Positions 53,709-56,436 of a DNA stretch of 64,000 nucleotides are shown in pieces (position 1 is the stretch's first letter; each line of letters starts with the position of its first letter). The notes beneath the pieces were generated by a model. The model saw only the letters and a program-made list of their open reading frames with translations. It was not told the origin of the DNA and did no database searches. The position numbers were made by a program, and so were the translations under genes. The stretch is from Rugalucina vietnamica (lineage: Eukaryota; Mollusca; Bivalvia; Lucinida; Lucinidae). The DNA lies in assembly GCA_964017185.1 (NCBI GenBank), contig OZ024880.1:44033071-44097070 (forward strand). Direction: 5' to 3'.

Positions 53709-53797
53709 AAGGAGCGTAGTAGCGCAGTCGGTAGAGGGGATGGCCCTGTATAGCTAGGCGCCGAAGCCGAAGTCTGCGGGTTCGAAACCTACCTTCG
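53709..53797 (+). mobile_element. tRNA-like module beside the Penelope fragment
   Basis: GTAGTAGCGCAGTCGGTAGA is a good A box and GCGGGTTCGAAACCTACC a perfect B box. About 45 nt lie between them, longer than a normal tRNA, and the acceptor strands do not pair. It is a tRNA-derived pol III promoter module or SINE head, facing the opposite way to the Penelope fragment that follows. Confidence 0.6.
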
Positions 53798-53823
53798 CCA
53801 ATTTAGTACATCTTTATTTCTCT

Positions 53824-53828
<5 letters not shown>

Positions 53829-53864
<36 letters not shown>
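53829..53864 (+). repeat. (TA)n microsatellite
   Basis: About 18 TA units between the tRNA-like module and the Penelope 3' end. Confidence 0.95.
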
Positions 53865-53868
<4 letters not shown>

Positions 53869-53905
53869 AAAATAATGACATCTGGATTTTTACGTTATTT
53901 TATTA

Positions 53906-53937
53906 CCGCGACCGGTTTCGTTATACTCATCAGGCGG
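53906..53937 (-). ncRNA. Hammerhead ribozyme (minimal type I, Penelope-associated)
   Basis: Read 5' to 3' on the - strand: CCGC (helix I), CTGATGA (core), GTATAAC (helix II of G-C and T-A pairs with loop ATA), GAA (core), ACCGGT (helix III strands A-C-C and G-G-T with no loop), C17, then GCGG (helix I partner of CCGC). All conserved hammerhead core positions are present. Predicted cleavage follows the C of GTC, between 53910 and 53909. The helix III is a bare palindrome, as known for Penelope ribozymes that act as dimers. It lies about 70 bp downstream of the GIY-YIG stop codon, as expected for such elements. Confidence 0.87.
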
Positions 53938-54007
53938 ATTTAACATAGTAACATAGCAACGTAAGTAACGTAACGCGACGTTAAACGTCGCAACGTTCGT
54001 GACATCA

Positions 54008-54304
54008 TCAAATTTTGTTAAGTTTAGGGCTGAATATATTCAAAAAATATTTTTCTTTCGACAACCTAGCTGAAACATCATTGACATGAAATTTAAAGAA
54101 AGGAAAAATAGAATACTTAGGATTAGTAACACAGCAACGGTCTAAATGAGCAGAGACAGGTAGTTGTCTTGTCGATGGATCTCTTATTTGCTGGTCGTGA
54201 ACAGTCCGTCTATTTCGTAGTTTGTCCCCTGTCTGTCCGATGTAAAATTCTTGACAACCGTTGCAGATTAAAACATAAAGGACGTTTTGCACTGTACAGT
54301 CCAT
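54008..54304 (-). CDS. GIY-YIG endonuclease domain, Penelope C-terminus (partial)
   Basis: A 98-residue frame on the - strand. NVLYVLICNGCQEFYIGQTG carries the two signature strands (here LYV and YIG). LRNRRTVHDQQI follows with the conserved arginine and histidine, and then PVSAHLDRC. This is the endonuclease that nicks target DNA for reverse transcription in Penelope-like elements. The frame has its own stop (KLNKI then TGA/TAA region at 54007). The N-terminal reverse transcriptase is absent, so the frame is a fragment of a longer protein and its ATG is only the first in-frame methionine. Confidence 0.85.
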   Translation of the reverse strand: MDCTVQNVLYVLICNGCQEFYIGQTGDKLRNRRTVHDQQIRDPSTRQLPVSAHLDRCCVTNPKYSIFPFFKFHVNDVSARLSKEKYFLNIFSPKLNKI

Positions 54305-55173
54305 GTTTTCCTTTACATGAAATATATATATTGTAGTACTTGAGTCATTGGTGCTTCATGCCAAGTTTCTTTGAAATCGGTAAACCAATTCAGGAGAAAA
54401 GGATTTTTGAAGGGTTTTACCATATATGGGCATGATGGCCATCTTGGTCATGTGACCTGAATTATTTAAATATACACTGGTTCCCCTTTCCTATAGTTGC
54501 TTCATATAAAATTTGGCTTTGATTGTTTGATTTGATTATTTATAAACACATTGATTCACCCTTCCCATAGATGCTTCCTATAAAATTTGGCTTTGATTGG
54601 CCAAGTGGTTTCAGAGAAGAAGATCTTTGAATATTATTGTAATATGCATGTATATTGCCCCCGTGTGAGGGCAGACCAACCCCTGGGGTCAATTCTTTTT
54701 TCAGAATCACATATCTTCAGTCCACTTGCCCATTATCTGCAACTTTATCCTTTCAAATGACATTTTAACAATTTTCCCCATTCAAATGCATGGGCGACCT
54801 ATGTTGAACTTGCGATAAAATAGGTCAATGTCATCCAAAGGTAATAATTTATAAACACATTGTAGTACTCTAGTCCCAATGCTTCATGCCAAGTTTCCTT
54901 GAAATCGGTCCAGTGGTTCCGGAGAAGAAGAATTTTGAAGTTTTTTACCATATATGGGCGTGGTGGCCATCTTGGTCATGTGACCTGGATTATTTATAAA
55001 CACATTGGTTCCGGGCCCCTTCCCACAGATGCTTCATATAAAATTTGGCTTTGATCGGCCAAACGGTTTCAGAGAAGAAGATCTTTGAAAATGGTGGAAG
55101 ACGACGGATGACGCGGGATCATGGCCATCCTATTAGCTCACCTTGTGAGCCTAACGGCTCAGGTGAGCTAATA

Positions 55174-56436
55174 AAACCAGAGGACTAATGGTCTTGTAAA
55201 TGCTCAACTTCGATTTGACTATAATGGTCATATACATGTATAGCCACAAGGCAGTGTCAATTTCCTTTTCAAGAACAAACTCATAAATATTCTACTAATT
55301 CTAGCCATTTGCCCATTTCCTGAAGTTTTTCCCTTCAATGGCATTTTGACAGCTTTCTGCATATTTATGTAACCGAAGTTGACCTTGACTTTAAATTTGT
55401 CATGGTCATCACAGGGTAATGATCTTTTTTTTTTTATTCAATTTAATGTCCCTTACAAGATTATTTCAGCTCATATGAGACGGGCCAATCAGTAGCTGGA
55501 GCGAAAATGAAGAACCCCGAGAAAAAAAGACACTTGGAAGAAAAGCAGAACTTGGCTTTTCTCACATGTGGCCAGAGCGGGGCTTGAACCCACACCAGAC
55601 ACAGTGGTGAGATGATCGAATGGTTTAGTGCGGTAATAAAATATCAGCGCTCTTAACCACTCGGCCACGGGGGCAGCCAAGGGTAATGATTTAAAAACAC
55701 ATCGTACATGTTCTACACTAGTTCCAATTAATACATATGTATACCAAGTTTTATTGCAATAGGTTCATCAGTTCCGAAGAATATTTTTGAAGGATTTTTA
55801 CCATATATGGCCATGGTGGCCATTTTGCTCATGTAAACACATTGGTTCCACCTTCATATACAGAAGTTTCCTTGAAAATTTGACTTTGATCAGCCAAGGG
55901 GTTTGGGAGAAGAAGACTTTTGAATATTATGATTATATACATGAAAACACCTCTGTGATCCAGTTTTTTTTTTTTTTTTTTTTTTTTTTCAGAATCTTAA
56001 ATCTTAAGCATATTTGCACATTTCCTGCAAGATTTGCCCTTCAAATGACATTTCAACATTTTTCCCCATTCAAATGCATGGGCAACCTAAGTTGACCCTG
56101 TCATAAAATAGGTCAAGGTCATCACGGGGTCATGATTTATACAAACTTTGTAGAGCTCCATTCCCTGATGCTTCATGCCAACTTTCAAAATCAAAGGCCT
56201 TTTGCTTCTGAAGAAGATAAAGGTTTATGCTATTTATAGTCATGGGTGCCTTCTTGGCCATGTGACCTGGACCATTTCTATAAACTTTCGTTCCCTCTTC
56301 CTAAGGATGCTCCACATGATGTTTGGCTTTGATTAGCCTAGCTGTTTCAGAGAAGATCTTTGAAATTGTGAACGACGGATGACAGAGCATGGGTATACTA
56401 TAAGCTCACCTGTGAGCCTTTGCCTCAGGTGAGCTT
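55174..56436 (-). mobile_element. Family C long element, copy 6
   Basis: AAACCAGAGGACTAATGGTC TTGTAAATGCTCAACTT to TAAGCTCACCTGTGAGCCTT TGCCTCAGGTGAGCTTA. More diverged than the other copies; TGACCT and CATATATGG blocks persist. It begins 3 bp after copy 5 ends and is interrupted by SINE V at 55434-55679. Confidence 0.85.
55434..55679 (-). mobile_element. SINE V, with exact 11-bp target duplication
   Basis: The + strand shows a T-rich tail first, then GAGATGATCGAATGGTTTAG, AATATCAGCGCTCTTAACCA CTCGGCCACGGGGGCAGCC, the reverse complement of the tRNA-like head. B box complement GGGCTTGAACCCACACC. Flanked by AGGGTAATGAT at 55423-55433 and 55680-55690. Confidence 0.93.

Follow-up and report, generated by a model that had tools for sequence, protein, structure and literature searches.

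The presence of hammerhead ribozymes in Penelope-like retrotransposons is already known from other animals. The reviews that treat these ribozymes, as far as their accessible text goes, describe them as being without helix III and as possibly dimeric in action (PMC6155905, PMC7761336). For the anole Penelope element, the available part of the source reports two adjacent start sites of reverse transcription, an optional tail of 30–40 bp, AT-rich targets and extension on both strands, with the hammerhead cut located upstream of the start of reverse transcription (PMC11167929). Rotifer Penelope-like elements are described, in the portion of the paper available to us, as having inverted pseudo-LTRs (pLTRs) and a 31-bp tail (PMC3846280).

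Here we analyse a hammerhead motif from the bivalve Rugalucina vietnamica, found in a DNA stretch of 64,000 nucleotides that is called the window in the following. The feature is very probably the 3' end of a recent, 5'-truncated and non-autonomous copy of a Penelope-like retrotransposon, with a predicted hammerhead in the pseudo-LTR of the family, and this judgement extends to the cycle proposed below. The coordinates of the features are collected in Table 1.

Table 1. Features of the insert and its immediate surroundings (positions in the window).
Feature	Position	Strand	Remarks
Predicted minimal type I hammerhead	53906..53937	-	helix I CCGC/GCGG, helix II GT(ATA)AC, palindromic helix III ACCGGT
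Whole Penelope-like insert: ORF2 end and non-coding end with hammerhead	53866..54323	-	ends by eye from alignments
C-terminal end of Penelope ORF2 (GIY-YIG endonuclease), 5'-truncated	54014..54322	-	
Predicted cut to 3' end of insert, 44 nt	53866..53909	-	commonest end class, optional tail absent
(TA)n target holding the insert	53828..53865	.	
tRNA-like SINE	53711..53827	+	its 3' tail is the (TA)n

The hammerhead motif in the window

Read from 53937 to 53906 on the minus strand, the sequence is CCGC CTGATGA GTATAAC GAAACCGGTC GCGG, a minimal type I hammerhead core of 32 bases. Its segments are CCGC, CTGATGA, GT-ATA-AC, GAA, ACCGGT, C and GCGG, which give a helix I of four pairs, a helix II of two pairs with the loop ATA, and a C17 at 53910, with the predicted cut between 53910 and 53909. 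All core parts named in the original prediction (CTGATGA, helix II, GAA, ACCGGT, C17 and CCGC/GCGG) are thus found on this strand. The motif contains the CUGANGA, GAAA and H17 elements of a type I hammerhead together with the three helices, the 6-bp helix III being available only as a dimer.

A strict structural scan of the 64 kb window, which demands the core, at least 2 bp in each of helices II and III and at least 3 bp in helix I, gives this site as the single one. The same scan yields 28 chance sites in 400 second-order Markov windows (51.2 million strand-bases), i.e. ca 0.07 per window, and 8 if helix I is to have at least 4 bp, i.e. ca 0.02 per window. The loose pattern CTGANGA..GAAA..TC is uninformative, with 6 matches in the window against 4.6 expected. 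The hammerhead models of Rfam 15 have no match anywhere in the window at gathering score, and none even at E≤10 for 321 bases around the motif. The score against hammerhead models, which had been suggested as a check, is therefore missing; this minimal form probably falls outside the Rfam models.

The absence of an Rfam match would fit with a chance resemblance, where there is no ribozyme and a conserved end piece has been kept for some other reason, for example the binding of a protein or of the reverse transcriptase (RT). The poor monomer fold (see below) points in the same direction, and sequence likeness within the family is due to descent. The helix pairs are also nearly invariant among the family copies, and since they hardly differ, covariation support is absent. 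However, the full core and three helix-compatible arms come together here, with only ca 0.02–0.07 such sites expected per window, and the divergent copy L010 preserves helix I through a G–U pair (by eye). Furthermore, the motif sits where Penelope elements reportedly carry hammerheads, according to the accessible parts of three sources (PMC11167929, PMC7761336, PMC6155905). Chance resemblance is thus a very unlikely explanation. The observation of the hammerhead motif is confirmed, as a self-cleaving RNA predicted from its letters.

The insert and its surroundings

The GIY-YIG frame at 54008–54355 on the minus strand (Pfam E 1.4e-4) ends 70 bp upstream of the motif, in line with the predicted distance of about 70 bp. 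Both this order and the assignment to Penelope are borne out by relatives in which the same arrangement recurs. The 3' end of the insert is TTATTTTTTC, 44 nt past the predicted cut, and the (TA)n run starts directly after it. That a (TA)n would follow the ribozyme had also been predicted, and the repeat is indeed present here and recurrent among the copies, but it is not part of the element, being instead its insertion target and the 3' tail of a SINE.

The coding part differs from the ORF2 of the tandem array described below at 4 of 309 nt, while all 103 of 103 residues are identical, which indicates that the window copy is recent. It has no RT, ORF1 or 5' part and is hence immobile by itself.

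In the SINE there are stretches that we take to resemble an A-box and a B-box; ARAGORN called no tRNA at this SINE. The same SINE tail is found near 3 of the 70 Penelope contexts considered below, namely the window, L007 and L013. Elsewhere in the window, a second tRNA-like stretch with a serine/leucine look (by eye) and ca 40 inserted bases inside lies at 55570–55680 on the minus strand, and a palindrome-like repeat end, ATTAGCTCACCTTGTGAGCC..GGCTCAGGTGAGCTAAT, at 55130–55180.

Copies in the genome

Recurrence in the genome is the decisive check on whether the motif is real. The pattern CTGATGA-N7-GAAACCGGTC has 118 exact matches in the assembly of the species itself (1.09 Gb, 47 contigs), 100 of which were listed, compared with 0 for the reversed pattern. 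The further copies that the original prediction called for do thus exist. Related elements lacking the motif at this position had been named as a ground for doubt; the motif does recur there.

Five of the motifs form a tandem array with a period of ca 3.7 kb (C4:31416105-31430948), in which the order of the unit is ribozyme, ORF1, ORF2. The place of the hammerhead in the family is accordingly the pseudo-LTR, between the stop of ORF2 and the start of ORF1 in the next tandem unit. In the second complete unit, ORF1 (420 aa) and ORF2 (773 aa) are both open; the remaining units differ and some of their frames are broken. ORF1 has a Q-rich stretch and no match in Pfam, and its end is overlapped by ORF2 in another frame. 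In the two-frame Penelope unit at L031:5395-8933, the overlap between the Q-rich ORF1, which has no Pfam match, and the RT/GIY-YIG ORF2 in another frame amounts to ca 45 bases, which raises the question of the translation of ORF2.

ORF2 contains what we take to be the Penelope RT motifs. Its Pfam matches in the array are GIY-YIG (E 0.0022) and RVT_1 (E 0.0034), both under the Pfam cut-offs, and the PDB sequence searches gave no match. The order typical of Penelope, i.e. RT and then GIY-YIG within a single frame, is thus found on the array unit, with these sub-cut-off matches, while the window has the GIY-YIG end alone. A protein search of the genome, in which 58 of 5626 candidates were scored, gave at least 62 matches, including families that are ca 48–57% identical, with many frames open. 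Some of the other copies listed have stop codons. Another Penelope family, 57% identical to the ORF2 of the array, has four tandem ORF2 matches, the fourth being partial, at C7:23508156-23521154 of the same genome (G000; minus strand), with a period of ca 3.8 kb.

Three other helix II/III hammerhead patterns were searched for genome-wide, and their counts of 6 (control 2), 1 (control 0) and 6 (control 1) are at about chance level. The single match of the second pattern is an enlarged version of the window-copy family. These counts give no support for a hammerhead in the ca 50%-identical Penelope families. The closeness of hammerhead versus flank among the subfamilies was discounted as evidence, because the copies had been preselected for an exact core.

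Another option considered was that the owner of the motif is an animal retrozyme, which is non-autonomous and forms tandem circles of 170–400 nt, and not an autonomous Penelope element. Solo copies of the motif with a length of about 100–110 bp do occur, and animal retrozymes likewise have a type I hammerhead and co-exist with Penelope elements, as stated in the available text on them (PMC7229834). However, Penelope coding sequence adjoins the motif both in the window and in many copies, and the tandem period is 3.7 kb and includes ORFs. Among the 100 listed of the 118 exact copies, there is no period of 170–400 bp, and thus no non-coding tandem unit of the retrozyme kind; the nearest pairs on the same strand are 544 bp (C14:40411261/40411805) and 1.9 kb (C5:3263038/3264932) apart. 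We consider ownership by a retrozyme to be extremely unlikely.

Folding of the motif

For a single strand, the optimum is a competing fold of −7.4 kcal/mol, and the energy is ordinary (z −0.46). The monomer hammerhead is calculated to be at +3.3 kcal/mol with one helix III pair and at −2.2 kcal/mol without helix III. Helix III is unable to close inside one motif, and the 6-bp ACCGGU/ACCGGU helix can be formed only in a dimer. The palindrome ACCGGT, which had been assigned to helix III, is thus there in the sequence, but it does not close within a single motif and needs a second one.

In the dimer, the double hammerhead has an energy of −13.7 kcal/mol, compared with −16.7 kcal/mol for the dimer optimum, which is a different structure, yet one that pairs both palindromes too. 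The optima of two separate monomers add up to −14.8 kcal/mol, so that the model does not clearly favour the double hammerhead. As modelled, the hammerhead is poor as a monomer and better as a dimer, and this agrees with the reviews, to the extent of their accessible text (PMC6155905, PMC7761336).

3' ends and insertion targets

The 3' ends were determined for 70 distinct contexts, all with the exact core, by alignment to the array unit. It is important to point out that the exact-core pattern stops at C17 and therefore introduces no bias against copies that end at the cut. The aligned 3' end is at +38..+64 past the predicted cut in 46 of the 70 contexts; the element itself ends near +44, and the alignments in this class extend some bases into the (TA)n. 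Nine contexts end at +80..+95, four at +65..+79 and nine at +6..+37, while two (L031 and L045) continue into the following unit. No end is found within 5 nt of the cut in any of the 70. In the +6..+37 class, L087–L089 all end at +10 in a shared foreign sequence and are probably one event that was copied. The tail sequence is present in 11 of the 70 contexts, namely the nine at +80..+95 and L031 and L045.

A (TA)≥5 repeat is located 20–120 nt past the cut in 52 of the 70 contexts; for 100-bp stretches taken at random from the window, the share is 0.8%. In 6 contexts there is (CT)≥5, in 5 of them alongside (TA), and 17 have neither repeat. Head-to-head inverted ends are seen in L033, L035, L036 and L038. 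The family copies thus display the pseudo-LTRs, the tandem or head-to-head inverted arrangement and the optional tail that characterise Penelope elements, and the copy ends, tail, targets and inverted pairs match the published Penelope anatomy as given in the available parts of the anole and rotifer papers (PMC11167929, PMC3846280).

The solo copies of ca 100–110 bp, with little beyond the hammerhead, are L005, L007, L015, L021, L030, L036 and L083. Several of the solo copies have their 5' end 50–60 nt upstream of the cut.

As both main end classes are located 3' of the cut, a copy that contains the hammerhead needs a template that is either uncut or re-closed into a circle. The ends inspected so far favour RNA that is uncut, or re-closed across the cut site, as what would mostly have been the usual template.

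The proposed cycle is then as follows. The tandem units would be transcribed, and the protein of the element would nick AT-rich targets, chiefly (TA)n. Reverse transcription would have two alternative internal start sites on the RNA, located about 44 and 80–90 nt past the cut site, and the cDNA would proceed back through the hammerhead into ORF2, often halting early. Extension from both target strands could give the head-to-head inverted ends. Two hammerheads of one tandem RNA may pair via ACCGGU to form a double hammerhead that cuts the RNA into units, with most of the inspected copies presumably made from RNA that is intact or re-closed at this site.

Copies starting at the cut

More than 100 copies of the motif, together with recent tandem units, make it possible to ask, from the insert ends, whether the template RNA was cut or uncut. 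A search for sequence starting right after the cut gave 100 places, of which 98 were inspected, leaving out C16:8399744 and C16:32187063. The inspection drew on the exact-core list, the copy sequences and other genome searches, in one of which 40 of 189 candidates were scored, with at least 42 matches. From a set of 97 places, 11 were left out of the reading, being in neither the exact-core nor the post-cut list.

In two of the 98 inspected copies, L092 and L105, the 5' start coincides precisely with the first base past the cut. The other 5' ends near the cut are at −18, −21, −21 and −24, and none was found at −1 to −13 among the copies read. The end of L100 at −14 seems to reflect an internal deletion; L100 was not counted with the six ends in −24..0, but is included in the 23 on which the Poisson figure is based. 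The probability of two of the six ends falling at one given base is about 0.02, and the broader Poisson figure is 0.04, for a test picked after the cases had been seen and with positions +1..+15 outside the reading. In L092, the RT would then seem to have switched to a second template. L092 and L105 are a weak hint that cut RNA may sometimes be copied.

These two copies are what speaks for a ribozyme that is on the transposition path, where the 3' fragments of the cut RNA are reverse-transcribed to a new 5' end or their circles are copied. The numbers are tiny, however, and the test was chosen post hoc. Most of the inspected copies traverse the cut, and 0 of the 70 end there. In addition, the anole element uses hammerhead-dead RNA normally in vitro and has no RNA reads at its cut site, as reported in the accessible part of that study (PMC11167929). 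Such a role is therefore doubtful, with copying mainly from uncut or re-closed RNA being preferred. One can also speculate that in-vivo cleavage is recorded in the genome, as a small class of inserts starting at the first post-cut nucleotide through run-off of the RT from ribozyme-cut RNA. We regard this as unlikely; if true, the in-vivo activity of Penelope hammerheads would be readable from the genome sequence alone.

Comparison with known systems

The animal non-LTR retrozymes resemble the present family in having a type I hammerhead and many copies. According to the available text, they are about 170–400 nt long and non-autonomous (PMC7229834), whereas the motif of Rugalucina vietnamica is part of a 3.7 kb coding element. 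Retrozymes of invertebrates are moreover described, in the accessible part of the review, as forming a stable helix III (PMC7761336), unlike the Rugalucina vietnamica monomer motif.

The anole element PAc, of the Poseidon type, is closer. In the parts of the source available to us, it likewise has a minimal hammerhead next to the pLTR that precedes the starts of reverse transcription, two such adjacent starts that lead to an optional tail, AT-rich targets and tandem copies (PMC11167929). The same text places the start of the PAc ORF at stem II and the starts of reverse transcription 111–118 bp into the ORF (PMC11167929), while in the Rugalucina vietnamica element the distance from the cut to the first ATG of ORF1 is 112 nt, and this ATG is preceded by both end classes. 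Another difference concerns the target, since the start of reverse transcription in PAc is stated to be not homologous to the cut DNA (PMC11167929), while the Rugalucina vietnamica RNA at the first end site is UUUUUUCUAUAUUA, which could pair with (TA)n (by eye). Unlike PAc, the element also has a separate ORF1 before ORF2, in another frame.

Finally, the family is like the type I hammerheads of Penelope-like elements and Terminons, which the available text of the reviews describes as minimal cores without a proper helix III, located in pseudo-LTRs and in tandem, with dimeric cleavage proposed and many dispersed copies in animal genomes (PMC6155905, PMC7761336). Compared with these, as far as they are described there, we see no essential difference, the Rugalucina vietnamica family showing the palindrome ACCGGU and the loop AUA.
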